Shown here: piece after piece, positions 5,201-46,725 of the stretch | Numbering within the stretch: the stretch's first letter is position 1 | Layout of the letters: the number at the start of each line of letters is the position of its first letter | Source of the DNA: a virus | Virus record (IMG/VR): IMGVR_UViG_3300037042_002125 | Coordinates: 1 to 64,000 of that record | Direction: 5' to 3' (one strand) | Length of the DNA: 64,000 bases | Notes under the pieces: generated by a model | Told to the model about the DNA's origin: nothing | Seen by the model: the letters and a program-made list of their open reading frames with translations, nothing else | The model's database searches: none | Position numbers and translations under genes: made by a program

Positions 5201-5217
5201 CATCAATAAGGAGTATT

Positions 5218-7029: not shown

Positions 7030-7030
7030 T

Positions 7031-7523: not shown

Positions 7524-7543
7524 GCCTGCATTAGCCGAAAGTC

Positions 7544-7572: not shown

Positions 7573-7593
7573 TTGTCAATTAAGAAAGAACAT

Positions 7594-8532: not shown

Positions 8533-8885
8533 GTAAAGAAAAAGTTTTTATCGTGTTATCTCACAAACATAATTTAAAGAAGGGTTCTAGAACAGAGTGG
8601 GAAGTTGCAGAATCTGTAGAATTTGTTAATCAGTTAAGAAATAAGCATATCACTATGTCTAGCGCAATCGGCGATTATCTTAATAGAAAGATGATAAGCG
8701 GCGAAAGTAAAGGAATGGGCGATTATGCAAAGTTCGAAGAATATGTATGGAAGAAGTATTCTAAGCAAATGACAGAACTCGAGACTGCCTATAATGCATT
8801 ACGTGTTCCAGAAATTGTCATACCCGAAACAATGATTACTGATTCTTTCGGTAACGTAAGACCACATACGGTATTTGATATATGA
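8529..8885 (+). CDS. Unrecognised protein in the position of gp62
   Basis: 118 aa, ATGA overlap with the clamp-loader gene and 4-nt overlap with the next. Helical, with EWEVAESVEFVNQLRNKHIT and a Lys/Tyr-rich helix (EEYVWKKYSKQMTELETAY). Position suggests the clamp-loader small subunit gp62, but it is shorter than T4 gp62 (187 aa) and I see no clear similarity. It could equally be an unrelated conserved phage protein. Confidence 0.55.
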   Translation: MSKEKVFIVLSHKHNLKKGSRTEWEVAESVEFVNQLRNKHITMSSAIGDYLNRKMISGESKGMGDYAKFEEYVWKKYSKQMTELETAYNALRVPEIVIPETMITDSFGNVRPHTVFDI

Positions 8886-32392: not shown

Positions 32393-33070
32393 TTAGTCGT
32401 TAAATATAAATTCAATCTTGGAGGCAGAACCTCCGCCAGTTACTGACAGAACATACTTCTCATCATGAGACCATTCTTTGTATCTGTCATCATAAAGCCA
32501 ACCTGCATCTGTCAAAATTTTATCGACCCCTTTAGGGGAAGTGTGAACAATCAAATGGTTATCGCCATAACGTTCACAGTTTACGCTACTGTCTGTAAAC
32601 AAGTGTATCACGTCTTTCTTAAGACGTTTTAGATCAGCAGTGTCTGCGATAACTAACAGTTTGATTGCCTTTTGATTGTTAGATGTTTCTTCATCAAGGG
32701 CAACCAAAGATTTGCCAAATACGGTGGGTCCGGAAGTCTCTATCAAACGTGCTGTGCTCTTAATTTTGTCAAGAGCTTTCTCCGCTTGCCCTTGTGTTTT
32801 AAACGTAGCATCTGGACCTGGACCAAATTGGCCGGTCTTTCCACCTTTGTCTATACTAAAGGTGCCAAGTATCCACACGCCTTCATTGAAGTCTGGACCT
32901 ATGTATCGGATAGTATCCCCAACTCGTTTCGCCTTATGTATGTCTGCAATTGATACTTCATCTCCACTCTTCTTAGCCAATTTTAGAAGAAGGTCTACAA
33001 CTGGGCCCTTAGGAGACGCCAAAGTTTGCAGACGTGCGAGTGCTTTGATTTTGAGTGGTTGGATTGACAT
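32393..33070 (-). CDS. Leader-tagged unrecognised protein, 225 aa
   Basis: Begins MSIQPLKIKALARLQTLAS, the clearest form of the shared leader (IKALARLQTLAS, residues 8-19). The rest is an alpha/beta protein with GPGPDATFKTQGQAEKALDK (about 83-102) and a C-terminal half that may be a second small domain. RBS AAAGGAAACACGCC. Function of the body unknown; if the leader is cut, the mature protein would start near residue 20. Confidence 0.65.
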   Translation of the reverse strand: MSIQPLKIKALARLQTLASPKGPVVDLLLKLAKKSGDEVSIADIHKAKRVGDTIRYIGPDFNEGVWILGTFSIDKGGKTGQFGPGPDATFKTQGQAEKALDKIKSTARLIETSGPTVFGKSLVALDEETSNNQKAIKLLVIADTADLKRLKKDVIHLFTDSSVNCERYGDNHLIVHTSPKGVDKILTDAGWLYDDRYKEWSHDEKYVLSVTGGGSASKIEFIFND

Positions 33071-33105
33071 GGCGTGTTTCCTTTGTAAGTGAGAGTTATG
33101 TTGGG

Positions 33106-33588
33106 TTAAGAGTTACTGTGACTATGTCCGAAATGTTTCTGTGCTTGGGCCAAACGTGCAATACTGGGTTCGTCTTTCAGAAGTGCGTCAAGGCCGTAAT
33201 GCCTGCGTTCTGTTGGGATATGATCTGGGTGGCACCAAACGTGCCCGTGTGTCTCCCAGTTCAACGTTGGATGAAACTGCTGGGGCACAATCCCAAGGAA
33301 ATTGTGGAACTTTAGCTTGGGTTCATCATAGGTGTAGATCGGGATTTGAGTCATCTTGCCTTTGTAGCCCAACTCTTCTTCGATCTCACGCCGAGAGGCT
33401 TGCATCGGGTCTTCACCAGGTTCGATTTTGCCACCCGCTCCGCACCATAGGTTAGGATCGACTACATCCGATGATCGGTAGACCACCAGGACGTTGCCCG
33501 TGTCAGCTGCAAATATCAGGGCACCTGCTGCCTGCACTTGCTTTCCATCTTGTCCAGCGTACTGAACATTTTTTTCTTTGATTGCCAT
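33106..33588 (-). CDS. Nudix hydrolase
   Basis: 160 aa. The Nudix box is complete: G-G-KIEPGE-x7-REIEEELGY (GX5EX7REUXEEXGU). Nudix enzymes cleave nucleoside diphosphates linked to another moiety with Mg2+. Substrate unknown; candidates in phage are NADH-like or Ap4A-like compounds, mRNA caps or oxidised dNTPs. Starts MAIKEKNVQYAGQDG with RBS AAAGGATAG. The location inside a block of virion-like genes is unusual; it may be packaged or simply transcribed there. Confidence 0.85.
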   Translation of the reverse strand: MAIKEKNVQYAGQDGKQVQAAGALIFAADTGNVLVVYRSSDVVDPNLWCGAGGKIEPGEDPMQASRREIEEELGYKGKMTQIPIYTYDEPKLKFHNFLGIVPQQFHPTLNWETHGHVWCHPDHIPTERRHYGLDALLKDEPSIARLAQAQKHFGHSHSNS

Positions 33589-33611
33589 GATGTGGTCTAT
33601 CCTTTGTTGAT

Positions 33612-33971
33612 TCAGTATCCGTTGTAGCTAACAGTCTCAAGGGCTCCAGGGCTCAAATAAACGTGGAAAGAACCACTGTAGCGGCCAAAATTACCACCCC
33701 AGGCTCCGCTATAGGTATCAGGATACTTTGGATCGCTTTTTAGATTAAGACCTTGGGGGGGTCAACTAAAAAATCAATAATCTTTTGGCGTTCTTCGTCA
33801 CTCACTTTCTTATCCGAGAATTCCCAACGCCAGTCTGCGCCTTTTGTAGAGCGTACTCTTTTGAAGGAAATCCCTTCCCCCTTTCAAAAAGGATTCAAGA
33901 TGTTTCCCACCCAGGCTTTTCATCTTAGGGGCAGCTAAAGTTTGGAGACGTGATAGTGATTTGATTGCCAT
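33612..33971 (-). pseudogene. Leader-tagged gene interrupted by two homopolymer frameshifts
   Basis: ATG at 33971 (AGGAACAACC upstream) opens MAIKSLSRLQTLAAPK, another copy of the leader. The frame breaks at a G5 run (plus-strand C's near 33877-33881): removing one base leads into GISFKRVRSTKGADWRWEF and DEERQKIIDFL. It breaks again at a C7 run (33755-33761), where adding one base leads into GLNLKSDPKYPDTYSG to a TGA at 33612. With both corrections one coherent protein of about 119 aa results. Two compensating indels at homopolymers look like sequencing errors or a recent knockout. Confidence 0.65.
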
Positions 33972-33996
33972 GGTTGTTCCTAAAGTTAAAACTCTA

Positions 33997-34365
33997 TTAC
34001 TTTCTGGGAAAGAAATCTATGAAACTTTTGAAGGATGGGCGGTGGTCTAAATGTAATTGCATTTTTACACCTTGTGGATCCCTCCACGCATAAGCTGACC
34101 AGGCATACTCAGGTCCTTGTCCTGCTGCTCTCCCCCTCACTGGTTTGGCATTGTGTTTAGTTTGGAGAGTTTCAAGAATGATCTGCTCTTTAGCTTTAGG
34201 TACAACTACAGTGATACAATAGTCATCATCTGTTGTGTTGGTTAGCCTGCACTTTTTAACAGAAAATCTTAGATTCTTTTTTATCCAATCTTTTGCATCC
34301 TGCTCGGTAAATAAAACCTGTGCAGCCAAACTTTGGAGACGGGCGAGGGCAAGTGTCTTGATCAT
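33997..34365 (-). CDS. Leader-tagged unrecognised protein, 122 aa
   Basis: MIKTLALARLQSLAAQ leader (residues 1-16), then a small alpha/beta protein (FTEQDAKDWIKKNLRF, DDYCITVVVPKAKEQIILETL) resembling ferredoxin-like folds. Basic middle part (KPVRGRAAG). RBS AAAGGATGACCTT. Body function unknown. Confidence 0.65.
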   Translation of the reverse strand: MIKTLALARLQSLAAQVLFTEQDAKDWIKKNLRFSVKKCRLTNTTDDDYCITVVVPKAKEQIILETLQTKHNAKPVRGRAAGQGPEYAWSAYAWRDPQGVKMQLHLDHRPSFKSFIDFFPRK

Positions 34366-34369
34366 AAGG

Positions 34370-35059
34370 TCATCCTTTTAGTGCGTCGTACATTTTCTGG
34401 CTAACCTCTCGGTAAGCCGCTGTCATTTTGTTGGCCAAATCCTTAGCGAGATTTCTCAACTCTTCGCTATGCTTGCTAACATGCTCGACCTTCACGTAGG
34501 TCTCTGTAGCCCTACGGAAGTCATGGTGATCGTTAATTATGTCCTGGGCCAAGCCCATGAACGCTGGCTTGAGGATGGTCTCGGCAATGCTTTGCGCGAT
34601 GTATTTCCTATCCTCATCAGCCTTGATATCTGTTATCAGCTCACGTACCTGGGACACCAATGTAGCAAACTGGTATACACCCTTTTGCGCTCCGCTATCA
34701 ACAAGTTGCTGCTCTGCCGCTGGCAATACGTTAACCGTCATCTGCAACAACCGCTTCTTCAGCAAGGTGATACCACCATCGTTGTTGTTCATTTCCAGCA
34801 TATTTATGATGGTCTGGCTATGCTTGCCGAAGTTGCTCTCGATTGCCCTTTGGGTTGCCTTGTTGCTGACTACCAAGGCCGTTCCAACCGTCTTAGTCTT
34901 CAACTTCGAACTAGGTCGGATCTTTATGGCCTTGGCTTCAACATCAACGACGAGGTCTTCCTTGGCCTTACGCGCCTTTCGTTCGGCCTTCGTCTCTTTC
35001 TTGTCCAACTGACTGCGCGTAAACCCACCTGCTATGTTTGATTTTTTGTGTTTAAGCAT
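34370..35059 (-). CDS. Unrecognised basic, helical protein, 229 aa
   Basis: N-terminal 45 residues are Lys/Arg-rich and probably disordered (KKETKAERKARKAKEDLV); the rest is long helices with coiled-coil spacing. No leader. No family recognised. Could be a scaffold or DNA-binding head protein. Confidence 0.6.
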   Translation of the reverse strand: MLKHKKSNIAGGFTRSQLDKKETKAERKARKAKEDLVVDVEAKAIKIRPSSKLKTKTVGTALVVSNKATQRAIESNFGKHSQTIINMLEMNNNDGGITLLKKRLLQMTVNVLPAAEQQLVDSGAQKGVYQFATLVSQVRELITDIKADEDRKYIAQSIAETILKPAFMGLAQDIINDHHDFRRATETYVKVEHVSKHSEELRNLAKDLANKMTAAYREVSQKMYDALKG

Positions 35060-35106
35060 GACGTGATTTTTTCTTGGTGTTGTGTTTAGTGTGTATCTTA
35101 TAACCG

Positions 35107-35376
35107 TTAGCCCCCGTACTTTCTTGACCCAGTTGCTTTGATTTTTATATCTGTGAACGTACCAGTGCTTTCACTGTGTATCCTTATGTAGCCAGATTCT
35201 TTATCAAGAGCATTTACCTGAGGTTCAGCGTCGTATCCTTTTGCCTTAAGAGCAGTTGCGCCTGCTTTTAATACTTGCCAAACTATTTTCCGCATGTCTT
35301 TAGGTTCTTTACCCTTTGCAGCCGTTGTCTTGAGACGAGCCAAAGCCATTTGTGCGATTTGTTTGTTCGATTTCAT
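35107..35376 (-). CDS. Leader-tagged small protein, 89 aa
   Basis: Begins MKSNKQIAQMALARLKTTAA, the ARLK-TTAA variant of the leader, nearly the same as the next tagged gene at 35415. The body (Lys-Met-Arg-Lys..., Gly-Tyr-Asp-Ala-Glu-Pro) is a short alpha/beta domain ending in a Gly/Arg tail. RBS AAAGGTAACACC. Function unknown. Confidence 0.6.
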   Translation of the reverse strand: MKSNKQIAQMALARLKTTAAKGKEPKDMRKIVWQVLKAGATALKAKGYDAEPQVNALDKESGYIRIHSESTGTFTDIKIKATGSRKYGG

Positions 35377-35414
35377 GATGGTGTTACCTTTAGTGATAAT
35401 TGATGTTTGAAACC

Positions 35415-35843
35415 TCAGTCGCGACTACCTTTAAAGCCAAAATCTTCTAACATAAGGATAGCAATGTTACTCATTCTCTGGACTGTAACGTTAAAAGTTA
35501 GATCTTTGTATTTTGCATTTTCTGCGTAGGCTAGTTTCTCACTTTTATCTTTAAAAGTGGCCTTAAATGTCTTCTGACAAAATTCTTTGAGTTTGGCGGC
35601 CTCCGTTGCAGCCTCATCTCTAGACTCAGTCTTGAATGTGTGGGAGAACATACTCCCAGTAACTACCCGTAATTCCTTAACAGAAACGGCTTTTGCTATA
35701 ACAACAGACAAAGCGATGAGAGCTCTCATCCTGTCTATTTCTGTTTGCATCTGTGCAATGCTTTCTTCTAAGTCAGACTTTGCAGCCGTTGTCTTGAGAC
35801 GGGCAACTGCCATACGAGCGATTTGTTTGTTTGATTTGATCAT
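35415..35843 (-). CDS. Leader-tagged unrecognised protein, 142 aa
   Basis: ATG 35843 chosen (TTGGAAACACATC before it); a longer in-frame opening to 35945 lacks an RBS. MIKSNKQIARMAVARLKTTA is a paralogous leader to the 89-aa gene. Bodies differ, so the leader has been combined with different domains. The body is helical, followed by a beta segment and MLEDFGFKGSRD at the end. Confidence 0.6.
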   Translation of the reverse strand: MIKSNKQIARMAVARLKTTAAKSDLEESIAQMQTEIDRMRALIALSVVIAKAVSVKELRVVTGSMFSHTFKTESRDEAATEAAKLKEFCQKTFKATFKDKSEKLAYAENAKYKDLTFNVTVQRMSNIAILMLEDFGFKGSRD

Positions 35844-35922
35844 GATGTGTTTCCAATAGTTAAAAATTAGGAATTGGGTAGGGTCCACCTTCAATAGAAA
35901 GCAGACCCCTAAACCTGTTAGA

Positions 35923-36756
35923 TCAGGCGAACGAGTGTTGATCAATCATATCGATCAGTTGCTGGATGTATTCCGGAGCGTAACCGTATGCCTTCTTGTA
36001 GTATTGGATCTGCAGTTCGCGATCAATAACACCACCAGCGGTAACGGCCATCTTGCTGCCGAATTGCTTCTCATCTTCACCCTCGAAGGCGGCCACTTCG
36101 ACCAGTTGATCGACGCCAACCTCTTCTGGTTCACCTTCACCGTCGAACGCCAGCACAGTCATCTTGGTGTTGTCATCCGAGCGGGCGACCACGTAACCGT
36201 GCATGACTTCTTCTTGGTTTTGATCAACGTAGGCAGCGAACTCACGGCACTCACCAGGAACCTTGGCGATTTGTGCCAGAGTGGGCTGACCATGTTTCTT
36301 GGCGTGAGCCAGATGTACCAACTCGCTCAAGTCTTCTTCGCCCTTGCGTACCAGGTACTTGCCAGTCGAGCCGGCCTTGATTTGCCACATAGACTTGTCT
36401 TCGGTGTCCATCAGCAAGTTGCTTGCCATTTGCTTGTAACGACCTTCGTTGGCAGCGGTTGCCGTCTCGTCGTATTCCTTGACGTCCGACTGGTAGCGGA
36501 TGAAACCAGCCAAGGTCTTGGAACCACCGGTGCGCTCCAGGCTACGGAACGAATTGGCTACAGGGGAAGCTTGTTGGCCAAACAATTTGGCAATAGCGGC
36601 TCTCACTTCTTCCTTGATCGGTGCTGTACCACTGTAGGTGATCAGAACCTTAGCCAGCGTAGGCGTAAGGACTTCGTAGTCTTGCAGGTTGACGCTGAAG
36701 GTGTTTACTTTGGCCAGCAGAGCGTCGGTATCCCAGTTTTTGAAAGATGCGGTCAT
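35923..36756 (-). CDS. Putative virion protein, 277 aa
   Basis: ATG 36756 chosen (TGGAAAATTATC before it). Contains a Lys/Gly turn (STGKYLVRKGEEDL), an alpha/beta middle and a C-terminal helical part (YYKKAYGYAPEYIQQLIDMI). GC-rich codons compared with neighbours. No family recognised; probably structural by context. Confidence 0.6.
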   Translation of the reverse strand: MTASFKNWDTDALLAKVNTFSVNLQDYEVLTPTLAKVLITYSGTAPIKEEVRAAIAKLFGQQASPVANSFRSLERTGGSKTLAGFIRYQSDVKEYDETATAANEGRYKQMASNLLMDTEDKSMWQIKAGSTGKYLVRKGEEDLSELVHLAHAKKHGQPTLAQIAKVPGECREFAAYVDQNQEEVMHGYVVARSDDNTKMTVLAFDGEGEPEEVGVDQLVEVAAFEGEDEKQFGSKMAVTAGGVIDRELQIQYYKKAYGYAPEYIQQLIDMIDQHSFA

Positions 36757-36831
36757 GATAATTTTCCAGTACAAAAGTTAAATGATAAATGTTGTGGGTG
36801 AGTGTTGGTCTGTCTGTGGTTTAGAAAATGT

Positions 36832-37386
36832 TTAGGTCAATACATCTTCCTCCATATCCATATCCACATCGTCTTCGAGTTCTTCATCGTCTAAGTCTTC
36901 GAGACCTGACAGTTCGCCCTCTTCATCCAAGTCGTCTAAGTCGTCCAGATAAGGATCAATTCCCTGATCTTGAACAAGCAGACGATTTATGCGTGTGTCT
37001 AAATCTCCTACTGACATACCAAGTAGCTCAGCTAGATCGTTGATCATGCCGTTCGACAGGTTAGGTTCAAATAAGAAGAGCGCCAGCATAAACAGATCAA
37101 GCGTATCCCTGTGTAGATCATGATCTTCTGGATCTTCTGGATCTTCTGGATTGAAGTCATGAAGGACCTCATCTTGATACAGCAGTTCAGAAATCTTGGC
37201 CTCAAATTCATGTGGCTCAAAACCAAGAATCCTACCCAAGTAGAAAACTTGCTCGTCTGTTGGGTCAGGGAACGCGTCGAGAAAGGAGTAGATTACCGTA
37301 TCTACATCGACGTCCTTTTCAAGGGGAGGTGGTGTAGGCAGGTTTGGATTTGCCGTACTAGGCGGCAACTTGGTTTGGGCGGACAT
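36832..37386 (-). CDS. Acidic unrecognised protein, 184 aa
   Basis: Proline-rich N-terminus (PPSTANPNLPTPPP), then two similar helical segments (FYLGRILGFEPHEFEAKISELL and NDLAELLGMSVGDLDTRINRL) that look like an internal duplication of a small helical repeat, and a strongly acidic C-terminus (Asp/Glu runs). May mimic nucleic acid or bind a basic partner. RBS CGGAGACC. Confidence 0.6.
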   Translation of the reverse strand: MSAQTKLPPSTANPNLPTPPPLEKDVDVDTVIYSFLDAFPDPTDEQVFYLGRILGFEPHEFEAKISELLYQDEVLHDFNPEDPEDPEDHDLHRDTLDLFMLALFLFEPNLSNGMINDLAELLGMSVGDLDTRINRLLVQDQGIDPYLDDLDDLDEEGELSGLEDLDDEELEDDVDMDMEEDVLT

Positions 37387-37453
37387 ATAGGTCTCCGGAT
37401 TGATAGTGGAACATTGGACTCGAAGTCACTATTAAATTACTGTAGGCAACGAT

Positions 37454-37819
37454 TTACCGCCAACCAGAAAATTTTGATTTGGGCGCAGTAGATACAAGCA
37501 TAGTCAGAGACCTAATAGGTGGGACATATGGTCCGCTCTTCATGTGACCATGCTTGGGCCTCTTGGCATGACACTTGTCGCAGCAAGTACCTAGGTTGGC
37601 TCGGGTCGTTGTCCCACCGTCTGCTATGCGTACCAAATGGTGAACGTCATGGAAGATATTTGCCTTAGGTTGCTCAGGTGCGCCACAGAAGATGCACTTG
37701 TGACCATCCCTTTGCTTTATGATCTTGCACAAGGCAAACCACTCAGCCTTGGAGCCGTATCCATCGCGGACTATCCGTGTAACCCCGCTTGCTCTGTGTC
37801 GGAAGAATGGTTTTGCCAT
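37454..37819 (-). CDS. HNH endonuclease
   Basis: 121 aa. Treble-clef pattern: CIFC, VHHLV with GG, N-L-x-x-CC-DKCH. This is the HNH fold with Zn-binding Cys pairs, close to the size of phage free-standing HNH nucleases. The C-terminus is short and basic. Either a homing-type enzyme or a phage recombination/packaging HNH. Lies between an acidic protein and a membrane protein, with 6 nt to the latter's end. Confidence 0.85.
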   Translation of the reverse strand: MAKPFFRHRASGVTRIVRDGYGSKAEWFALCKIIKQRDGHKCIFCGAPEQPKANIFHDVHHLVRIADGGTTTRANLGTCCDKCHAKRPKHGHMKSGPYVPPIRSLTMLVSTAPKSKFSGWR

Positions 37820-37825
37820 GGCCTG

Positions 37826-38203
37826 TCACTCTTTTGATTTGAGTTTTGTCTCGGCTACTGCCTGAGATTTTTGGACTTCTGCTATATCCAAGGAACGGCG
37901 CTTGTACCTTTGGAGCATTGCCTCGTCAACCGGTGTCCAATCCTTAGGCTTGTCAGCTTTCTTCATGTCAAGCTCGAACACTTTGTCCTCAAGACGGTCA
38001 GCTTCAATCTTGGTGATCTGCTTCTGTTGGGTCAAAGCTTCTTTTTGGATGTCAGCCGCATGGGCGTACCTTGCGTCAACTGTCAAGATCGCTCCAATGA
38101 TAGTTGCGGCTGCGGCTACCGTAGCCGCAGTTGCCTTCAATGGGTTCTCTTTTATAGGAGTGGGAAGGCGCTTGTGCATTTGTGAAAAGCTTAGTACGTC
38201 CAT
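37826..38203 (-). CDS. Single-pass membrane protein with coiled coil, 125 aa
   Basis: ATG 38203 after a strong RBS (AAAGGAG). One hydrophobic segment (TAATVAAAATIIGAILTV, about residues 28-45), then a charged coiled coil (QKQITKIEADRLEDKVFELD). No signal-peptide cleavage site required; probably N-in. Size and design resemble inner-membrane spanin or other phage membrane accessory proteins, but no outer-membrane partner is seen. Confidence 0.6.
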   Translation of the reverse strand: MDVLSFSQMHKRLPTPIKENPLKATAATVAAAATIIGAILTVDARYAHAADIQKEALTQQKQITKIEADRLEDKVFELDMKKADKPKDWTPVDEAMLQRYKRRSLDIAEVQKSQAVAETKLKSKE

Positions 38204-38231
38204 AGAATTCTCCTTTAGTAACTGTTTTTCT

Positions 38232-39716
38232 TTAACGGATGCCCCATCTGGCATTCCACTTACCCCAACCAGTAGCAGGACTCAACGAGATTGCCACAGC
38301 ACCAGCGGCACCACGCATTTGGTTTGTACCATTAGCCGGACCAAGATTGCCGTCACCAGCCATGTGGCCTTTGATAACAAGGTTTTGCTTGAACGGTTTG
38401 ACTTCATTGTCGATTCCTGACTGTATGCTGTCTGCCAACTGAGAGTAGAAACCAGTGCGATCAACATCCAACGATATGGCCTGGCCACTAAAGTTGAACA
38501 CCTTCTCGCCCTCCGCAAGGAACTGAGCACGGAGTGTCATTACCTCCGCAAAACGCAACCAGAACTCTCGCACACTGCCAGTAGCGTTAGTCATTGTGAA
38601 GCCTGTCATCACACCTTGGGCACCATTGAAACCATCACGGCCACGGCGTAAGTATGCAAGCAAGAGTGGTGTGGTAAACAGTAGGTCCTTGCGGTGTGCA
38701 ATGGTAGTAGCACTCTTGTTTACCAAGATCCGCATGTCGTTCACTGCGCTCATGATGGACGGGTTAACAATAAAGATGCGACCGGTTTCCCTCATTTTGC
38801 CAGCAGGGTTAACCTGGTTCCAGCCTGTCCAGACAATCGTGTAGCTCTCAAGAGCAGCAGGCATGTTCAACGGTGATTGGATTACGCCTGCGTACATATA
38901 ACCGTCAGGAGTAAGTACATTGCTATTTACAGAGACTGGTGCCACCACCATGCTGTTTTCCCTGTAGACCTCGAACGTCACATACTCATAAGGTTGATCA
39001 AAAATAACATAAACAGGGATATCATTAAAGGCAAGTTCAACAACATCTTCAACTCCTTCAGGTGTAGTGTTAGGGCCAGTGACGACCAGAGATTCAAACG
39101 AGTAATAGGTCTGCCCGTTGACGGTCAAGCCCCAACGTATTTGGTAGTTCTGCCCAGACAGAGTTGGAACCATGTCAGTGGGTGTGTTGATAACGGCGCT
39201 GCCTGTGATTTTCACATCGCTGCTAAGGTTAACACCTTCATAGGAGTGGGCAACACCTGAGCTATAGACAACACCGTCACGATCAATCAAGCACCATTGG
39301 ATGTTTCCATTGGCGTAATCGAAGGGCAAGGGAAACATGAAGGACACAGAGCCTATACCAGCCTGACCTGCTTCAAGTTCACCCACCAAATCAGAGAACG
39401 CGTCAACGTTCTTGGTCTGATAGTCAGTGGCGAGATTGGAGTTGACCACTACCGCCAATGTCTTTGTGTAGATGTGCGCCTGGTCCGTGTTGACCGTTAC
39501 GTTGATACCGTAGGATTGCAGGTCAGTACCTCCCGACACCTGCAGCTCAATTACAGGTGACGACACAGATAGGACCGTCGTCGCTATCGTGTTGGGGTCT
39601 ATCTGGGTAATGGCGCCCGCGCTGATAACTTCTCCACCGACGAATACGTCTGAGAAGTCGATCTGGACTCTCCGTGTATCCTGGGGAAATTTTACGATCA
39701 CTTTACTAGATTGCAT
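38232..39716 (-). CDS. Putative large virion protein, 494 aa
   Basis: ATG 39716 (MQSSKVIVKFPQDT) with GGAAAGAATTACA before it; the TTG at 39731 is rejected. Several beta-sandwich segments in the N-terminal 300 residues (Ig-like pattern, e.g. VISAGAITQIDPNTIATTVL), then a helical region and a Gly/Ala/Asn-rich C-terminus (GDGNLGPANGTNQMRGAAGA). No enzyme motif. Likely a tail or decoration structural protein. Overlaps by 19 nt the nuclease ORF at 39698. Confidence 0.6.
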   Translation of the reverse strand: MQSSKVIVKFPQDTRRVQIDFSDVFVGGEVISAGAITQIDPNTIATTVLSVSSPVIELQVSGGTDLQSYGINVTVNTDQAHIYTKTLAVVVNSNLATDYQTKNVDAFSDLVGELEAGQAGIGSVSFMFPLPFDYANGNIQWCLIDRDGVVYSSGVAHSYEGVNLSSDVKITGSAVINTPTDMVPTLSGQNYQIRWGLTVNGQTYYSFESLVVTGPNTTPEGVEDVVELAFNDIPVYVIFDQPYEYVTFEVYRENSMVVAPVSVNSNVLTPDGYMYAGVIQSPLNMPAALESYTIVWTGWNQVNPAGKMRETGRIFIVNPSIMSAVNDMRILVNKSATTIAHRKDLLFTTPLLLAYLRRGRDGFNGAQGVMTGFTMTNATGSVREFWLRFAEVMTLRAQFLAEGEKVFNFSGQAISLDVDRTGFYSQLADSIQSGIDNEVKPFKQNLVIKGHMAGDGNLGPANGTNQMRGAAGAVAISLSPATGWGKWNARWGIR

Positions 39717-40201
39717 TGTAATTCTTTCCAAGTTAATTCATGAAAATTAGATATTCTAGTAATATGTTTAGTTTTTGGATTTACTACCCACACCCTTAAA
39801 TCAATGCCTAAACTATCTGCAGCCTTAGCTTTCATTTTGATACGTTTGAAAGTATCGAGGTCCGTTAAACCCACAGTGTACAAGCTTTTAACCTCTATAC
39901 ATATGTCTTTATTCTTGTATTTTATTCGTATGTCTGGGTAGTATAGGCTATCCTTGTTCCGTTTTGGATTGAACCACCATATTTTAGGTTGATCTCTTTT
40001 TCTAACATAAATATTCTTGGCGGGGACTTTCAACTGATTTACTAGAACGCCTAAAACATGACCTTCGTACCCTTGATAAATAAATTCCTTACCTTGCAAA
40101 CATGCAGAATGACGTAAGTATCTACTTAACAAAAATTTATCTGCAATATCTGGATCTTGACTAGGAAAATCTACACCATAGCGACGTTGGCATCTTCCCA
40201 C
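39698..40201 (-). CDS. PD-(D/E)XK homing-type endonuclease
   Basis: 167 aa, GTG start possible at 40201. YYPDIRIKYKNKDICIEVKS is a PD-(D/E)XK core: Asp in PDI, then E-V-K in IEVKS. It is followed by a helix and VWVVNP strand. GYEGHVLGVLVNQLKV is the usual helix of phage VSR/homing-like nucleases of this size. It sits inside and out of frame with a truncated copy of the KGKG-motif protein (40171-40269), as expected for an insertion. Lower GC than its neighbours supports acquisition. Confidence 0.7.
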   Translation of the reverse strand: MGRCQRRYGVDFPSQDPDIADKFLLSRYLRHSACLQGKEFIYQGYEGHVLGVLVNQLKVPAKNIYVRKRDQPKIWWFNPKRNKDSLYYPDIRIKYKNKDICIEVKSLYTVGLTDLDTFKRIKMKAKAADSLGIDLRVWVVNPKTKHITRISNFHELTWKELQCNLVK

Positions 40202-40269
40202 TTCTTTTCCAGCTTAGCCTTGGTGCCTTTGCCGTCTTTGACAAGTTTGTTTATGTAGGTATTTGGCAT
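40171..40269 (-). pseudogene. Truncated copy of the KGKG-repeat protein
   Basis: MPNTYINKLVKDGKG and KLEKKWEDA (32 aa to a TAG at 40171) match the first 30 residues of the product at 41532-42218 (MPNSYINKLVKQGKG). After these residues the frame is lost and the nuclease ORF begins. Either a paralogous gene fragment broken by the nuclease insertion, or part of a frameshifted fusion. Confidence 0.6.
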
Positions 40270-40271
40270 GG

Positions 40272-41360
40272 TTAACCCCGATTAGCTAAGTAAACGCACA
40301 GATCAAGTCTGTCCTTCCAGGTGCTCGCTATCTTTGCCAACGTGTATTTGCCCATGTCCTTGTACCACATTTTGTATTCTCCAGTGGCATCCCCTTCTCC
40401 TTCCATGTCACGCTCCAAATTCATCATAATGCTTTCACCAATATCCTTTGTGGAACGTTTGGCTAAATCATATGATACGGCTCTTCCCATGGTTGTAACG
40501 CTTAGGATGCTGCCACTGAATTCAGATTCACCAAGACCCATGTTGCTAACAGTGAACATGGCGGCAAAAAACTCCCTCTCATAGGGCTTTAGTGCTCTAT
40601 CCTTGGCTTTAAGTGCCTTTAGAGCACCGCTTGATTTTTTGACTTCACCAAACGCAGATTTGAGAAGATTGTCAAAAGCTTCCTTTGCTTGAGCTGTTGA
40701 AGAGTCTAAATCAAGAGTTATTTTTGTTACTTTAGACGTCTTGTACGGGTTAACTGTCAGATGCAGTGTATGCGGCGTACCTCGTATGCTACGCCCTTTT
40801 GCATCTTCCTCCCTTTCAATGTACACCAAAAGATTTGTGTCCTTTGCTTTGGACATCTTTATCATCAGCAAACCCTCACGAGTAGGCTCCTTAAAAGAAT
40901 ACCCCTTAAGAGACGTGCCCAAGGATTTGAGATCCATTACAGCTAAAAGCTTGTTGGCCTTAGCCACAAGTACCTGGCCTGCTTTTTGATTCTCTTCCGC
41001 GTTTGCTTGTAGAGCCTTGGCATAGGCTTTCATGGCCTTACTTGAAGCTACTTTATCAAGTTCTTTTGGCCACTCCGGTATGCTTTTTATCTTTGCAGCC
41101 AACTTCACCAAACCCTTTGCAATACCTGTTTTGTAGGTAAAAGTTGAAGGACAGTAATCACCATCAAAATCAACTTTAATATCACCAATACTTTGCGGCA
41201 TACTATATGCCGGTAGGTCATCACCCAATATTCTGTTAGTGACCCTTTCCCCCAACTTGTACATCCACTGTGAGATTTTTATCAGAAGAGAAATGTCCTC
41301 TGCAGATATAGTAGGTTTGGCCCCTAAACTTTGCAGACGTGCGAGTGCTTTGATCATCAT
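40272..41360 (-). CDS. Leader-tagged unrecognised protein, 362 aa
   Basis: MMIKALARLQSLGAKPT leader, then a long alpha/beta protein. Helical middle (KAMKAYAKALQANAEENQK), a beta part (LHLTVNPYKTSKVTKITLDL), and a C-terminal region with YDLAKRSTKDIGESIMMNL. RBS AAGGAAACACT. The largest of the simply tagged proteins. No homologue recognised. Confidence 0.65.
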   Translation of the reverse strand: MMIKALARLQSLGAKPTISAEDISLLIKISQWMYKLGERVTNRILGDDLPAYSMPQSIGDIKVDFDGDYCPSTFTYKTGIAKGLVKLAAKIKSIPEWPKELDKVASSKAMKAYAKALQANAEENQKAGQVLVAKANKLLAVMDLKSLGTSLKGYSFKEPTREGLLMIKMSKAKDTNLLVYIEREEDAKGRSIRGTPHTLHLTVNPYKTSKVTKITLDLDSSTAQAKEAFDNLLKSAFGEVKKSSGALKALKAKDRALKPYEREFFAAMFTVSNMGLGESEFSGSILSVTTMGRAVSYDLAKRSTKDIGESIMMNLERDMEGEGDATGEYKMWYKDMGKYTLAKIASTWKDRLDLCVYLANRG

Positions 41361-41372
41361 AGTGTTTCCTTA

Positions 41373-41621
41373 TCAATGAACTTTTTGGGATTTGGCTTTA
41401 TAGCCTGTACGGCCTTTGAACTCTTTCTTATTCAAAAGGTCTGCCTGTTTGGCTGCGTCTTGCTTGGTGAATTTCTTGGGGTTAGATCCACCTAACCAAC
41501 ACGTTACAGTTCGAGTTGACCCGCCTGTGGTTTATTTCCAGATTTGCCATATCCCAAATTCTTTTGGTTCTGCTGCCAAACTTTGGAGGCGAGCCAAAGC
41601 GAGTGTCTTGATTTGGGTCAT
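41373..41621 (-). pseudogene. Leader-tagged gene with an in-frame stop
   Basis: Internal ATG 41621 with RBS AAGAAGGAAACACC starts MTQIKTLALARLQSLAAEP. After ten further residues a TAA (41532-41534) interrupts the frame, which then continues in the same frame with GGSTRTVTCWLGGSN and NKKEFKGRTGYKAKSQKVH to TGA at 41373. Readthrough would give 82 residues. The leader is also in frame with the 228-aa ORF upstream. Nonsense mutation, readthrough site or sequencing error. Confidence 0.55.
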
Positions 41622-42218
41622 GGTGTTTCCTTCTTCGGTTTCAGGTTCGGGGGTGGTCCATATTTTGGAGTAGTCGTCCATTGTGAGAACGTCTTTCTCC
41701 TTGGAGAGTTTGAGGACGGCCTCCACTACGTCGTGGAGTTCAACATCACCTTTCAGTGTCTCGCGAGCAAGCTCAAGCAAGCGTATGAACAAAGGGACAT
41801 CAACGGTTATTGTGTCGAGTGGGTCTTTTGCTGACAAGCTTACCATAGCAACATCTGCTTTCACTAAAGTTTGAAACACGCTCATAATGTGACTCCATGT
41901 ATCTGCATGACCTGCCTTGTGGACCACGTCTTCTGCCTCACGCCACTTCTGGAGCAAGAACTTCTTGTCGCCTTTACCATCTTTAATTAGCCTAGCCAAG
42001 TAGTGGTCAGGTGGTGGAGGACACATATTGGAATGAGACAACACCAAGCCTGATCCAGCAACGTGAGCCATCTTCTGGAAGATGCTCATGATATACGCCC
42101 AATCTTCTTTGTGTCCTTGTGCGGCAGCGGCTGCCTTTGCATCTTCCCATTTCTTTTCCAACTTGGCCTTGCTGCCTTTTCCCTGTTTGACAAGTTTGTT
42201 GATGTAGCTGTTGGGCAT
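41532..42218 (-). CDS. KGKG-repeat protein with a C-terminal leader motif, 228 aa
   Basis: Two copies of a motif of about 50 aa: YINKLVKQGKGSKAKLEKKW...GHKEDWAYIMSIFQKM (1-50) and YLARLIKDGKGDKKFLLQKW...GHADTWSHIMSVFQTL (about 70-117). Then a helical part follows. At residue 200 comes an internal Met with its own RBS opening MTQIKTLALARLQSLAA. So the leader is at the C-terminus of this ORF, which has no stop of its own before it. The KGKG motif recurs truncated at 40171. Family unknown to me; likely virion or head assembly. Confidence 0.6.
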   Translation of the reverse strand: MPNSYINKLVKQGKGSKAKLEKKWEDAKAAAAAQGHKEDWAYIMSIFQKMAHVAGSGLVLSHSNMCPPPPDHYLARLIKDGKGDKKFLLQKWREAEDVVHKAGHADTWSHIMSVFQTLVKADVAMVSLSAKDPLDTITVDVPLFIRLLELARETLKGDVELHDVVEAVLKLSKEKDVLTMDDYSKIWTTPEPETEEGNTMTQIKTLALARLQSLAAEPKEFGIWQIWK

Positions 42219-42220
42219 GT

Positions 42221-42439
42221 TTATTTCCCAATTGAAGGGTTTACAATTATTTCGTTTAGTTGTAGAACTTTATCACTAGAGCGTGACCACAACCTGGTAC
42301 AGTCATCTAATCTCCTGCGCCTATCAAAGTCTACCTGTTGTTGGACTATACGCCTGTCTTTTATAATTCTTCGTTCTTTCAAGGCGAACGTAGCAGCGTC
42401 ATTCCGCTCGTCTTTTTGTGCTTCTGTATCCTGACCCAC
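42221..42439 (-). CDS. Unrecognised small basic protein, 72 aa
   Basis: GTG start, no clear SD. Rich in Arg, Asp and Gln (RRIIKDRRIVQQQVDFDRRRR). Its end carries the GGGAAATAAAC RBS of the downstream 228-aa gene. It fills an otherwise empty 220-nt gap, but the weak start keeps confidence moderate. Confidence 0.45.
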   Translation of the reverse strand: MGQDTEAQKDERNDAATFALKERRIIKDRRIVQQQVDFDRRRRLDDCTRLWSRSSDKVLQLNEIIVNPSIGK

Positions 42440-42442
42440 AAG

Positions 42443-42811
42443 CTACACGTCAATGACGTCCAAATTGGACGTAACTACAAGGATGCCAGACCTAGCACAG
42501 TAATTAACCGTGGTTGAGATAGTTCCCGACTCAGGACGGAACCCACCGTATATGCCGCTTACATCGCTCCGACCGGGTGTGAAATCAAACTCGTTCAATA
42601 GAGCGTATACCTTACGACCCATCATAGGCTTACCTGCTAGAACGTGGTGCGTAAACTTGGATGGGTACGTCTTGAACGCACTGTTCTGCTTCTTGAACGG
42701 CCCTAACAAGTGAGTAAGGGCATCCATAAGAGTAGGCAGCAAGTCCTTTGCGGTGAGAGACTCACCTAGGCGTTCTGCCTGCTCTTTTGTTTTAAGTTTT
42801 CTAATTGACAT
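42443..42811 (-). CDS. Unrecognised 122-aa protein
   Basis: ATG 42811 (MSIRKLKTKEQAERLGES) shares the M-S-I-x-x-L start of leader proteins but not the ARLQ core. Alpha/beta with a beta C-terminus (GTISTTVNYCARSGILVVTS). Gap of 2 nt to the protease gene upstream, so likely co-translated with it. Confidence 0.6.
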   Translation of the reverse strand: MSIRKLKTKEQAERLGESLTAKDLLPTLMDALTHLLGPFKKQNSAFKTYPSKFTHHVLAGKPMMGRKVYALLNEFDFTPGRSDVSGIYGGFRPESGTISTTVNYCARSGILVVTSNLDVIDV

Positions 42812-42813
42812 AG

Positions 42814-43587
42814 TTAGGCCTTGGTAATGGTCCAAAAATCTGCAGACAAAACACGATCAGATAGATAGGCGTAAGGCATTGTGAAGTATCCCCCAAGACC
42901 CCAGTCAACACCCCAGGAGTTGCGTACTAACCCGCGTTGAGTCTCGTCATCATACCCAACGAGCAACACTGCATGGCATCCGTTGCATTTGGCCTTCGGG
43001 CCTGGCATAGGAAGCTCACCAGTGACTGCCACATCCTCAGAGTCGAATTCGTCGTAGACGTCAAAGCAGAACACAATAGGGTAACCAGACGCTAAGGTGC
43101 GCTTAACTTCCAGCATATTCTTGTCTCGGCTGACGCGGGCGTAGGCGCTTATCTTATGCTTGGCCGCCTTATCAAATACTTCGGGTGGAGGACGGATTCC
43201 TACTTTAGCAGCACGGTACGGCCATATTTCCTCCAACGGCGTACCATACTTCTCGACCACCTTGAGGCCAGTACGTATTTGCGTACCCACGTCCTTGTTG
43301 ACGGTGCGCTCTACCACGCGACCATTGTAGAACGGGAACAAACGGCTGAGATCAGAGTAGTGGTGATCGTGGTGATGCTTGATTTCCAGGTACTCCATAG
43401 CCCCAACTATTGAGTTGTAGACACAGCTACTCAAACTCGCCTGGTTCTCTACAGGAGAACAATGTGGGCGCAGATCGACCTTAGCTGGTAAGTCCTCGGC
43501 ATGTTTCAGTTTGAAGAAATCAGATGTGTGGACATATTGGTCGCGAGCGTCATGCGTGTCACGGCTGGCATTAAAACGTTCAAACAT
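42814..43587 (-). CDS. Papain-like (C1A) cysteine protease
   Basis: 257 aa. Catalytic set of the papain family: Gln49 (oxyanion hole) and Cys55 in PVENQASLSSCVYNS, His205 in NGCHAVLLVGYDD, Asn223 in VRNSWGVDWGLGGYF. DLPAKVDLRP is the usual start of the mature enzyme, so the first about 33 residues are at most a short propeptide. No signal peptide. Located amid proteins carrying the common LARLQ leader. Papain-like proteases are rare in phages. It may process leader or virion precursors, or be delivered into the host; both are inference. Confidence 0.88.
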   Translation of the reverse strand: MFERFNASRDTHDARDQYVHTSDFFKLKHAEDLPAKVDLRPHCSPVENQASLSSCVYNSIVGAMEYLEIKHHHDHHYSDLSRLFPFYNGRVVERTVNKDVGTQIRTGLKVVEKYGTPLEEIWPYRAAKVGIRPPPEVFDKAAKHKISAYARVSRDKNMLEVKRTLASGYPIVFCFDVYDEFDSEDVAVTGELPMPGPKAKCNGCHAVLLVGYDDETQRGLVRNSWGVDWGLGGYFTMPYAYLSDRVLSADFWTITKA

Positions 43588-43596
43588 AAAAATCCT

Positions 43597-44052
43597 TTAT
43601 AATTTACCCTTGTAACCCAATTCCTTTAATGCTTTGTCTGCATCAAGGTGTTTTGACTGTGCATACTTACGGAAGATTTCAAAGGTCTTTTTACATCCGT
43701 TTACTTCATCCTCAACAGTAGGATCTTCTTCAGAAAGCCCATCTTCCTGTATGTAGTTCAATGTCTCTAAGGCTTCTTGTACCTTACGTATTACTGCCTG
43801 TGGAAATCTTGGTACCTCAAGAGGCTTACCATCGTCACCACTTAGTGGTAAGAGTTCAAAAGATTTAACCTCTTGGTCTGTTAATTCACGTGTGTAGGTA
43901 ACAATCCCATGTCGTACCCTGTCAATACCTTCACAGTCTTTGTCATACGTGTACTCACCTTTGGGTACAGCCCCTAAACCAGGTGGTCTGTTGACAAGCC
44001 CATACCTGAACTGTTTATTTGCCAAGATTTTGTGAAGTGGTTGGATTGCCAT
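43597..44052 (-). CDS. Unrecognised 151-aa protein
   Basis: MAIQPLHKILANKQFRYGLV start, reminiscent of the M-x-I-x-x-L beginnings of this block. Acidic C-terminal half, ending KALKELGYKGKL. No family recognised. Two nt from the leader gene at 44055. Confidence 0.6.
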   Translation of the reverse strand: MAIQPLHKILANKQFRYGLVNRPPGLGAVPKGEYTYDKDCEGIDRVRHGIVTYTRELTDQEVKSFELLPLSGDDGKPLEVPRFPQAVIRKVQEALETLNYIQEDGLSEEDPTVEDEVNGCKKTFEIFRKYAQSKHLDADKALKELGYKGKL

Positions 44053-44054
44053 TG

Positions 44055-44285
44055 TTATTCCTGGTACATTGCATCCGCTTGAACACCATTTAGAATTCCT
44101 GCAACTATTTTGGCATCTTCCTTAGAACAGGAACCTGGTGGAAAATTAAATGTCCAAGTATGGCCCTTAGACTCCCCTGATATGTGCAAAGTCATACCAG
44201 CAGTTACTTTAAGTTTTACCTTAGACATTGAAAGAGACCCTGCGGCTGTTGTAGAATGTAAACGTGCAATTGCTTTGATTGTCAT
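44055..44285 (-). CDS. Leader-tagged small protein, 76 aa
   Basis: MTIKAIARLHSTTAAGSLS leader variant (RLH-STTAA), then a small beta-rich body (KVKLKVTAGMTLHISGE, HTWTFNFPPG). RBS TAGGAACAATC. Function unknown. Confidence 0.6.
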   Translation of the reverse strand: MTIKAIARLHSTTAAGSLSMSKVKLKVTAGMTLHISGESKGHTWTFNFPPGSCSKEDAKIVAGILNGVQADAMYQE

Positions 44286-44300
44286 GATTGTTCCTAAATT

Positions 44301-45152
44301 TCAATATTTCTTAGGTTCGAGGTGGGTCTTCAACTTGTTAACCAACCCCATGTCGTTCATCTTGCGAGCGCCTGTGAACACAAATGCAATGGCGAGGTTG
44401 GCTATATTTGAAGCAAGCCAAGCTACACCAAGGCCAGTAAACAAGCCTGCACCCAACAAGGTAAGCATAGTCAATCCATCTGCGCTAAGGAACAGGTCGG
44501 TCAGATCAAACTGTCCTTTGAATGCGGCTACGATCACCGCAATGTCAAAGTCAAATTGCGGGTTGCCTGTAAAGGACATTGAGAGCCATATCCAGAGCAG
44601 CAAACCTGCAAGAGCAATACCAGCCAGCTTCGTCAACAGAGGGTGGGCATGAAGAATCTCGTCGATCTTCATTGTGCCTTTTCTCAGGCCGTCAAGTGCG
44701 CCACTCTTTACCAGCGCATCAAATGCCTTGAACAGACCCTTAGGCACAAGGCTGGTAAATGCAGTGATTGCCTTCCACAATGCCTTGACATTGAATGCCA
44801 CGCCTTTGAGGAGGGCGAACACATCTTTTTGCTTGAACGCCTTAACCACTTCCTCAAAACCAACCTTGAAGTCGTTCGCAATGTCTGTCAGCAATTGCTT
44901 CAGGTCACCAAAGGCTTTTACCAGTATACCTGGGAGGCTGAAATCAAAGGCAAGGACCTCACCAACTGGCAGGCACATCTGATCCATTACCTGGCAATAG
45001 ACAGCGTAGTTGATTTCATCTGCACTGGCTATAGTAATCAGTTTAGGACCTTGTGTTAAGGCAGTCGCGAACGCGGCGCTCACTTCTGTGTTGAGCGCCA
45101 AGCGTCTCTTCAACTGATCATGGAATTGCTTCGCGTTATACGTCTGGTTCAT
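44301..45152 (-). CDS. Multi-pass membrane protein, 283 aa
   Basis: N-terminal 180 residues are mostly amphipathic helices (GVAFNVKALWKAITAFTSLV). Strong membrane segments follow at about 190-210 (LAGIALAGLLLWIWLSMSF) and two at about 233-265 (LTLLGAGLFTGLGVAWL, NIANLAIAFVFTGA). No family recognised. Possibly an inner-membrane or ejected pore-forming virion protein. RBS AAAGGACTG. Confidence 0.6.
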   Translation of the reverse strand: MNQTYNAKQFHDQLKRRLALNTEVSAAFATALTQGPKLITIASADEINYAVYCQVMDQMCLPVGEVLAFDFSLPGILVKAFGDLKQLLTDIANDFKVGFEEVVKAFKQKDVFALLKGVAFNVKALWKAITAFTSLVPKGLFKAFDALVKSGALDGLRKGTMKIDEILHAHPLLTKLAGIALAGLLLWIWLSMSFTGNPQFDFDIAVIVAAFKGQFDLTDLFLSADGLTMLTLLGAGLFTGLGVAWLASNIANLAIAFVFTGARKMNDMGLVNKLKTHLEPKKY

Positions 45153-45171
45153 GGTCTGTCAGTCCTTTAGA

Positions 45172-46725
45172 TTACTGAGCTTCATCTTGAATGTAATCCC
45201 AGACCTTATCTGGTATTTGTTCGAGGCTTGATGTATCCATTGAAGAATACCTGTCAACCTTCTTGACTTGAATGTAATCCCAGGCCTTATCTGGTATTTG
45301 TTCGCGGCTTGATGTATCCATTGAAGAATACCTGTCAACCTTCTTGATGTTGTTTTCCAAGAAAGCAGAAGCAAGGCGAATGTGATCGGCAGCGTCACCA
45401 ATTACCATAGCTGCCATACCCAGACCAAAATCCTCTTCTTCGTCAGAGATCCAACCAATAGCATTTTCAGCACTCAGCTCTCCCTTGAACGCATTTTTGA
45501 AGGTAAGCATACCCAAGGAATTCATCTTTGCATCTTTGCCAAGTTTTGCTTTTGGTCCCCTAGCCTTTTCAACAAGTTTGGCAACCTGTTCTACAAACTT
45601 GAGTACTTCCTCAGTACCTTTATAAAACTTTTTGTTCTTCTCGACAGCATTGAGTACCTTAGCGATACTGGCCAAGAAGTCAGCACAAGCTTCTGTAGGG
45701 CCTAAAGCCTTGGCCTTACTGTAAGCTGCCTTGAGAATCTTAGGAGCATTCTGATCTACAATTTTGTAGATTTCTGCCAAGTTATCTTCTTCGGTATCGT
45801 GCTCAAGAACATCTTCAGCAGGTTTTTTGCCTGCGTTCTTGGCAGGTTTGGATTGCTTTGCCAACTTGTTTGCCAGGTCCAAAGTGAGAGTAAACACCTT
45901 GTTAGGTCCAAGCTCTGGGCTTATCATGCGAATCTTTTTGCCGTCTGCTGATTTACGCACACCAAATTTTTCACCAGGGCCAAGGGTCAACTTAGTCCCT
46001 GCCCCAGATTTAAGAGGAAGACTTTTCCCTTTATAGATAAACCAATCATAGGCAGATTCTCCTTTGGGGGTCGCAATGGCCTGGAGGCGGGCACTTGACT
46101 CTTCTTTGATCTTGGTAGTCCTGACTACGGCTGAGTGCATGCCTTTGCCAGCTTTGTAACCTTTTTGGTCATTGTAGTCAGAGGCAAATTTATCAGCCTT
46201 TGCTTTATCAGTAAACGTCTTTAACAGATCGTAGTCAGGGCCGCCTGCCCTATCACCTTTGACCTTGTGGTAGACGTAAAAGGTAGTCGCAATGGCTTGG
46301 AGGCGGGCGAGTGCTTGAATCTGGGTCTTGATTGTAGTCATGGTATGGTCTTCCTTTGATTGTGATGCCATTGCGTTCGTGTCGTCGATGTTGACGGCGT
46401 TGATAAGTGTTACTATCCGTTGGTACCAGCCATCGCATATACCGTCGAGATAGGACGAAAGGTGTTGCATTGCCCGCAAAGCTTCTTGGCGAGACTTAGC
46501 CCCAATGAGATTGGTGTAAGCCTTACGGACATACGGCAAGGCTTTTTCATAAGGGAGAGCCTTTGATCGTCCAGCGTAATCGGTGCTACCAGGTGTGATG
46601 ATCCTTTCCAGAGAATCACCGAGGTGTTCAAGAGCTTCTAGGGCAGCAGGGAACATGCAGTCTTGCGTAGGACCCGCGGTCACAGAATTTTTCCAAGGGC
46701 TAGGTATGTTGGTATTGCTCATCAT
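45172..46725 (-). CDS. Composite 517-aa protein with two internal leader motifs
   Basis: Residues 1-128 are a helical unit (AALEALEHLGDSLERII). At residue 129 an internal Met (46341) with RBS AAGGAAGACC opens MTTIKTQIQALARLQAIATT, a full leader in the same frame. A second copy, SARLQAIATPKGES, lies near residues 214-225. Between them is a unit of about 70 aa (VYHKVKGDRAGGPDYDLL...); after the second is a longer Lys-rich helical body. The end carries a tandem 27-aa repeat (KKVDRYSSMDTSS...). So the ORF looks like three joined modules separated by leader motifs: either a polyprotein cut at them, or fused genes with internal re-initiation. Confidence 0.6.
   Translation of the reverse strand: MMSNTNIPSPWKNSVTAGPTQDCMFPAALEALEHLGDSLERIITPGSTDYAGRSKALPYEKALPYVRKAYTNLIGAKSRQEALRAMQHLSSYLDGICDGWYQRIVTLINAVNIDDTNAMASQSKEDHTMTTIKTQIQALARLQAIATTFYVYHKVKGDRAGGPDYDLLKTFTDKAKADKFASDYNDQKGYKAGKGMHSAVVRTTKIKEESSARLQAIATPKGESAYDWFIYKGKSLPLKSGAGTKLTLGPGEKFGVRKSADGKKIRMISPELGPNKVFTLTLDLANKLAKQSKPAKNAGKKPAEDVLEHDTEEDNLAEIYKIVDQNAPKILKAAYSKAKALGPTEACADFLASIAKVLNAVEKNKKFYKGTEEVLKFVEQVAKLVEKARGPKAKLGKDAKMNSLGMLTFKNAFKGELSAENAIGWISDEEEDFGLGMAAMVIGDAADHIRLASAFLENNIKKVDRYSSMDTSSREQIPDKAWDYIQVKKVDRYSSMDTSSLEQIPDKVWDYIQDEAQ
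45187..45348. repeat. Tandem duplication of an 81-bp unit
   Basis: Two near-identical copies (about 45187-45267 and 45268-45348) at the 3' end of the 517-aa gene, encoding 27 residues each (KKVDRYSSMDTSS[RL]EQIPDK...). Recent in-frame expansion. Confidence 0.8.

Follow-up and report, generated by a model that had tools for sequence, protein, structure and literature searches.

A short leader peptide shared by otherwise unrelated proteins of a jumbo phage clade, a candidate capsid-targeting tag

The window analysed here is a stretch of 64,000 nucleotides of viral DNA, comprising bases 1-64000 of the 222,078 bases of IMG/VR record IMGVR_UViG_3300037042_002125. Its minus strand carries a cluster of genes whose proteins contain variants of one short peptide, usually at the N-terminus and referred to below as the leader. 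All nine leaders proposed by an earlier sequence-only reading of this DNA were found on the minus strand at the starts it had given, and the parts of the nine proteins that follow the leader were mutually dissimilar (best E 0.57), as that reading had also maintained. Among the 27 called genes of the region, eight pairs of N-terminal 22-mers scored at least 30, compared to 0 interior pairs, and an improved consensus is [IL]-x-A-x-x-R-L-x-[AS]. A profile was then built from 172 leaders with the window phage excluded. The I, A and R-L positions of this profile are partly imposed, because the training leaders were found by a pattern derived from Achromobacter phage Motura; the window leaders came independently from the sequence-only reading. 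The window-free profile recovered most window leaders together with two extra copies in the record; three window leaders ranked above all other N-termini of the record, and the copy at 46341 scored highest overall. The leaders and the proteins that carry them are as follows.

33014..33049, minus strand: leader IKALARLQTLAS, occupying residues 8-19 of the 32393-33070 protein; score 15.6 with the window-free profile
32393..33070, minus strand: leader protein of 225 amino acids (aa), with a further, weaker copy, IKSTARLIETSG, near residue 103; no match in Pfam or PHROG
33930..33971, minus strand: leader MAIKSLSRLQTLAA, in a gene with two frameshifts; other frames carry the reading to about 33610
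34321..34365, minus strand: leader MIKTLALARLQSLAA of a 122 aa protein (33997-34365); profile score 7.3
35317..35376, minus strand: leader MKSNKQIAQMALARLKTTAA of an 89 aa protein (35107-35376)
35781..35843, minus strand: leader MIKSNKQIARMAVARLKTTAA of a 142 aa protein (35415-35843); DNA near-identical to that of the 35376 leader
41319..41360, minus strand: leader MMIKALARLQSLGA of a 362 aa protein (40272-41360) with no relatives in phages or IMG/VR; profile score 15.5
41571..41621, minus strand: leader MTQIKTLALARLQSLAA, from an in-frame ATG within open reading frame (ORF) 41532-42218; in-frame stop at 41532-41534
44241..44285, minus strand: leader MTIKAIARLHSTTAA of a 76 aa protein (44055-44285); profile score 11.9
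46285..46341, minus strand: leader MTTIKTQIQALARLQAIAT, from an in-frame ATG within ORF 45172-46725; score 21.5, the best of the record
46072..46104, minus strand: second, internal copy EESSARLQAIA in ORF 45172-46725; profile score 10.4
45172..46341, minus strand: protein behind the 46341 leader, with a KMPT-N domain (PF20294, E 1.2e-07) at residues 98-164

Two copies, those at 41621 and 46341, fall within longer ORFs, each at an in-frame ATG preceded by an AAGGA-like purine stretch, and are therefore either separate starts or internal leaders. The genes at 33971 and 41621 look decayed because of the two frameshifts in the former and the in-frame stop after 29 codons in the latter; past the stop at 41532-41534 the reading frame of the 41621 gene stays open for about 52 codons. 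One frameshift of the first decayed gene (33610-33971) lies near a run of seven C, and the other decayed gene spans 41364-41621.

Judged by protein comparison, the window phage is a jumbo myophage and belongs to the Motura/Saruman lineage, with Motura and the Burkholderia phages BcepSaruman and Sauron as distant kin. A DNA-level search with the 20 kb core of the window gave no matching phage record. Two genes of the region served to reach the relatives, and the connector gene is the anchor of the leader cluster in them.

26618..31201, minus strand: SNF2-like helicase gene bordering the leader cluster, 1527 aa, 31% identical to Motura and BcepSaruman/Sauron
38232..39731, minus strand: head-tail connector protein (phrog_17327), 37-39% identical to those of Motura and BcepSaruman/Sauron

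IMG/VR was searched with alignments of the connector and the helicase, and the loci fetched (given L numbers below) were then scanned for the leader. Most relatives were positive, each with its own dialect of the clade consensus M-(x)-[IL]-x-A-[AS]-x-R-L-x-A, and the expectation that related phages would bear the same type of leader on different proteins was strongly borne out. About 14 annotated Motura proteins open with M-x-I-Q-A-x-x-R-L-x-A or a close variant, and their genes lie around the connector gene, between the tail-fibre genes and the helicase. At least three leader proteins were found in 28 phage groups and at least five in 16, with a maximum of about 16 tagged proteins in the examined parts of one phage. 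The motif was 56-fold denser at positions 0-9 than elsewhere in ORFs of at least 100 aa, with Motura and Sauron left out. Whole-genome counts were 4 in the window phage against 0.44 expected, 13 against 0.60 in Motura and 3 against 0.57 in Saruman; these three counts are lower bounds because the gene caller was crude. The dialects include shifted forms at loci that lack the exact pattern.

L048: MKIEAAxRLxA
L065: MKVKLNAATRLAA
L058: MKINAxxRLxA
L062 and Motura: MEIQAxxRLxA
L061/L094, RSL1-like: IKAAVxRLQxT
L095, closely related to the window phage: TQALARL
L050, shifted: KIEAxxRIQA
L046, shifted: MAIKNRIQA beside MRIQAVARLK
L070, shifted: FAxRVLA
L060, shifted: NFAxRLL
L057, shifted: EIAxRLxxT

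The leader is a real, clade-wide feature of unrelated proteins, more widespread than the sequence-only reading had reported. In the outgroup phages PhiXhv-12, PaBG, Voja-6, Yoloswag, GR11A and Lu11, shared N-termini were not in excess and the motif was hit hardly at all, and the idea that the leader is a trait of all jumbo phages was rejected on these six. The leader is apparently undescribed: no published description was found in the open-access literature searched, nor in the searched passages of a 2026 review of jumbo phages.

When the leader was cut off, 224 distinct leader proteins fell into 109 clusters, of which 80 were singletons, and a MAFFT alignment of 145 leader proteins gave MKIxAAxRLxA followed by no consensus. 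These results bear on the explanation that the proteins form one diverged paralogous family with the leader as its best-kept part. Some cargo is indeed paralogous within a phage, as with Motura gp174/175/177, but the number of clusters, the unrelated folds seen by Pfam and the existence of homologues with and without the leader refute a single family, which the sequence-only reading had named as the finding that would overturn it, and leave this explanation hardly credible. Homologues that differ in the leader include two genes of the window.

33106..33588, minus strand: NUDIX hydrolase with no clear leader here; homologues in relatives have the leader
46722..47987, minus strand: Motura gp157 homologue; the leader is absent here and from Motura itself but present in L059 and L078

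The NUDIX homologues carry the leader within the clade, while the outgroup versions start directly at the domain. In the NUDIX and gp157 homologues the leader is an addition to a domain that already existed.

The codons used for the leader separate selection on the peptide from sharing of DNA. At identical residues in 15 loci of relatives, codon sharing was 0.23-0.44, compared to 0.25-0.32 expected from general codon usage, and L048 uses each of the six Arg codons at its invariant R. Because synonymous codons are near random in the relatives, selection acts on the leader peptide. The same argument, originally made from the window phage, holds in the relatives (15 loci, sharing at or near chance) and holds only in part in the window phage itself, whose leaders share codons at 0.60 against 0.29 by chance. 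The leaders of the window phage have also been copied recently: those at 35376 and 35843 have about 20 residues in common in nearly the same DNA and are, by this similarity, recent copies of each other at the DNA level. Since codon sharing is above chance and the 35376/35843 DNA is near-identical, copying does occur, as would be expected if the sharing arose at the level of DNA or mRNA, for example as a translation enhancer or at a recombination hot spot where the 5' ends of genes are copied. Such an origin is very improbable as the general explanation and is largely refuted by the near-random codons of most relatives, by the six Arg codons in L048 and by copies at the C-termini of proteins and inside them.

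Copies were also found beside the structural genes, which were located in the record by homology to Motura.

115167-116219 of the record: major capsid protein
About 118858-120786 of the record: tail sheath
About 120843-121334 of the record: tail tube
About 149890-150525 of the record: head maturation protease

The two extra copies recovered by the window-free profile lie in this part of the record. The gene that immediately follows the major capsid gene (record 116305-117291) has a C-terminal copy, NLKALARLSSTSKTSK, ending at the stop codon, and the gene directly after the tail tube (record 121355-121732) has an N-terminal copy, MAIKQATRLKTVA. Motura gp197, directly after the Motura tube gene, carries the leader MAMRIQAQARLNAAK, BcepSaruman gp077, directly before the BcepSaruman tube gene, carries MKLEAAARLLATS, and in the L057/L108 phage the post-capsid gene and the head gene that follows it are separated by a leader gene. 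Across the clade, the post-capsid proteins begin with a helical-looking segment, contain a strongly acidic stretch and end in a helix-like FAxxLASM, a layout suggestive of a scaffold or core protein. Several of them contain a leader-like [VI]xAxxR[VIL]xA followed by acidic sequence: IKASKRLKA in Motura, LKAKARLKA in L090, VQATKRLKA in L113 and VGAAKRVKA in L085. The NLKALARL of the post-capsid protein of the window phage reads NLKALDQL and NLAALDRL in its two closest relatives. A module that recurs in many leader proteins, WWxxLSxxQxxxYLxxHPxSK, takes the form DNYSKDKQAKYLLNHPGSK in the window phage's own post-capsid protein (record 116305-117291); it is also listed at L055:2432, L048:9653, L078:1565, L082:1018 and L087:6623.

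On this evidence the leader is probably a portable capsid-targeting tag that works like the capsid-targeting sequence (CTS) of phage T4, a reading by analogy that does not file it as a homologue. Late in infection, a head component, perhaps the acidic post-capsid protein or the capsid shell itself, would draw proteins with [IL]-x-A-x-x-R-L-x-A, usually at the N-terminus, into the prohead as it assembles. The tagged proteins would be enclosed in the virion and ejected with the DNA into the next host cell. Because the tag alone would suffice, each phage could attach it to host-takeover and conflict enzymes of its own, a set that keeps changing. Support comes from the shared tag, its peptide-level conservation, its modular gain on homologous domains, its location within or next to structural gene clusters and the clade-wide spread.

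Several known systems resemble the proposed one. Encapsulin cargo-loading peptides are likewise short and portable and load unrelated cargo into an HK97-fold shell; they are typically C-terminal, belong to a bacterial compartment and are unlike the leader in sequence, and are compared here by description only. The T4 CTS of IPI, IPII, IPIII and Alt is also a short N-terminal tag on otherwise unrelated proteins of one phage, for which 10 residues are enough; the tagged proteins vary fast between relatives and include host-takeover enzymes, and related tags occur in related phages (PMC9026906). The leader differs in its sequence, [IL]xAxxRLxA, in lacking the LxE/IxE site that ends the T4 tag, in its occurrence on up to about 16 proteins per phage, and in its internal and C-terminal copies. 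The T4 consensus appears to differ from that of the leader, and the two are likened by mode of action and not by sequence alignment. Because the T4-type protease site is absent the leader is not placed in the CTS family; as regards homology and packaging the comparison is one of analogy only. The DarB signal of P1 comprises 10-30 N-terminal residues on an injected anti-restriction protein, but its authors report no consensus among the Dar proteins (PMC9024508), whereas the leader consensus is strong and clade-wide. Propeptides of SPN3US and phiKZ, also jumbo phages, are N-terminal segments tied to the packaging of ejection proteins, and the first 15 residues of the head proteins gp53 and gp54 are identical (PMC5694885, PMC10052503). 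Unlike the leader they are mostly 111-254 residues long, are cut after AxE or SxE and occur on few, partly paralogous proteins, and these phages are not close kin.

The positions of the copies constrain how such a tag could act. Strong copies numbered 275, of which 235 were N-terminal, 9 C-terminal and 31 internal, some of the C-terminal and internal ones being spurious frames. Several C-terminal copies stop 0-3 residues short of the stop codon (L033:14696-14935, which is BcepSaruman gp094; L040:6618-7112; L059:4356; L062:13439; L065:16124; L106:8139), one BcepSaruman/L040 protein (L040:6618-7112) has a copy at both ends, and internal copies often separate the first 55-160 residues from the remainder. 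Since about 10-15% of copies are internal or C-terminal, a place at the extreme N-terminus is not required, and the positions are more in keeping with a docking peptide or a protease site than with a strictly N-terminal signal. The motif could instead be mainly a recognition site of the prohead protease, with head entry by other means; the cut would fall at RLxA or immediately behind it, whether near one end of the protein or between two domains. Copies between domains and just before stop codons are placed as cut sites would be, the acidic scaffold-like proteins with leader-like motifs would be typical substrates, and a head maturation protease was found in Motura, Saruman and the window phage; moreover, T4 and SPN3US unite targeting and cutting in one propeptide (PMC9026906, PMC5694885). 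However, the N-terminus of the major capsid protein, the expected main substrate, lacks the RL core, no P1 residue is conserved after the motif, and the motif, situated 2-4 residues from the Met and extending to A at -3 and I at -5, exceeds what a cut site needs. We regard this explanation as quite unlikely.

The tag could instead send proteins elsewhere in the infected cell, to a membrane, a host machine, a phage compartment or a chaperone. A short, Ala-rich N-terminus with Leu/Ile and Arg recalls targeting peptides generally, AlphaFold2 gave a short low-confidence helix at residues 3-11, and most leader proteins of the window phage are encoded away from its capsid genes. An amphipathic helix was considered and dropped, the mean helical moment being 0.346 compared to 0.337 in shuffled leaders, which disfavours a classic membrane-binding helix. 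The segment is likewise unlike a Sec/Tat signal peptide: an invariant Arg lies within it, an h-region is lacking, and the internal and C-terminal copies do not suit signals of this type. Import into the nucleus of the Chimalliviridae is reported to proceed without terminal signals (PMC13282480), and the copies in structural gene clusters favour the head. Another cellular address is therefore unlikely.

The leader proteins with matches in Pfam or PHROG included NUDIX (n=9), GNAT (n=7, weak), SprT-like (n=5) and DUF3175 (n=5) proteins. The leader was further found on a saccharopine-dehydrogenase-type, homospermidine-synthase-like protein (L052:8449-9897) and on a polymerase X with the thumb and palm of DNA polymerase beta (L046:4111-4893); enzymes of polyamine synthesis and repair may thus be carried in the virion. 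L067:2721 is listed with these leader-bearing proteins. Leader kinases (L048:14391, L058:11597) match a PHROG whose description, protein kinase and inhibitor of host transcription, we take to mean T7 gp0.7. Several of the cargo domains are known among injected or host-takeover proteins, and the cargo is of host-takeover or conflict type. ART, GNAT and SprT proteins of jumbo phages have been discussed in such a role (PMC7824862). Motura gp174/175/177 (L063:14817-18747) form a leader protein family that is paralogous within the phage and has further members at L062:15285, L059:11504 and L051:834. The family conserves Y-R-x-T, an S and, in an ExE-like setting, an E, all invariant, and these resemble the R-S-E set of ADP-ribosyltransferases; gp177 had no ADP-ribosyltransferase match in Pfam.

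A T4-like head address fits the gene neighbourhood, the copies adjacent to the capsid and tail-tube genes and the cargo; the tag may in addition be trimmed by a protease, as the sequence-only reading had allowed. In the position frequencies, no acidic residue is conserved in the motif or behind it and an LxE/AxE site is lacking, and because 40 of the 275 strong copies are internal or C-terminal and the acidic cleavage residue is missing, a simple cleaved N-terminal presequence is not established. Other observations also count against head targeting. The match in the post-capsid proteins is clear only in the window phage, Motura, L090 and L113, and is weak or absent in other lineages, including Saruman and the RSL1-like phage. 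The main leader cluster of the window phage is about 70 kb from the capsid gene, and leader proteins are mostly not beside capsid genes. An ADP-ribosyltransferase fold for the gp174/175/177 family was not upheld, as AlphaFold2 reached a predicted local distance difference test (pLDDT) score of 59.8 and Foldseek returned nothing significant beyond the family and no solved structure.

In its broadest form the proposal would be that one tag, usable at the N-terminus, internally or at the C-terminus and read by a protein of the head core or shell, serves the whole jumbo phage clade as a general cargo-loading system for a large, fast-changing enzyme set (0.7-like kinases, acetyltransferases, NUDIX, SprT-like proteases, polymerase X and polyamine synthesis), marking hundreds of unknown proteins as virion-delivered effectors. 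We hold this tentatively, as a possibility that falls somewhat short of probable. If the leader is a head address, a sequence search alone would list the virion-delivered proteins of the clade, mostly of unknown function, which is normally within reach of proteomics only. It would extend the CTS idea to a distant lineage with a much larger cargo set, offer a short handle for loading proteins into the capsids of phages of about 220-260 kb, and open a route to the head component that reads the tag. NUDIX hydrolases, 0.7-like kinases and homospermidine-synthase-like proteins would then be brought in with the particle.

Three further features of the window were noted. A papain-family cysteine protease (PF00112, E 3e-15; 42814-43587, minus strand) lies within the leader cluster and has no leader. 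The C-terminus of the 517 aa ORF contains a tandem repeat of about 28 residues (KKVDRYSSMDTSS.EQIPDK.WDYIQ; 45172-45400, minus strand). The first 10-11 kb of the window (1-11000) have plus-strand genes and a guanine plus cytosine (G+C) content of 0.34-0.37, compared to 0.43-0.57 beyond, and may represent a separate region or an insertion.

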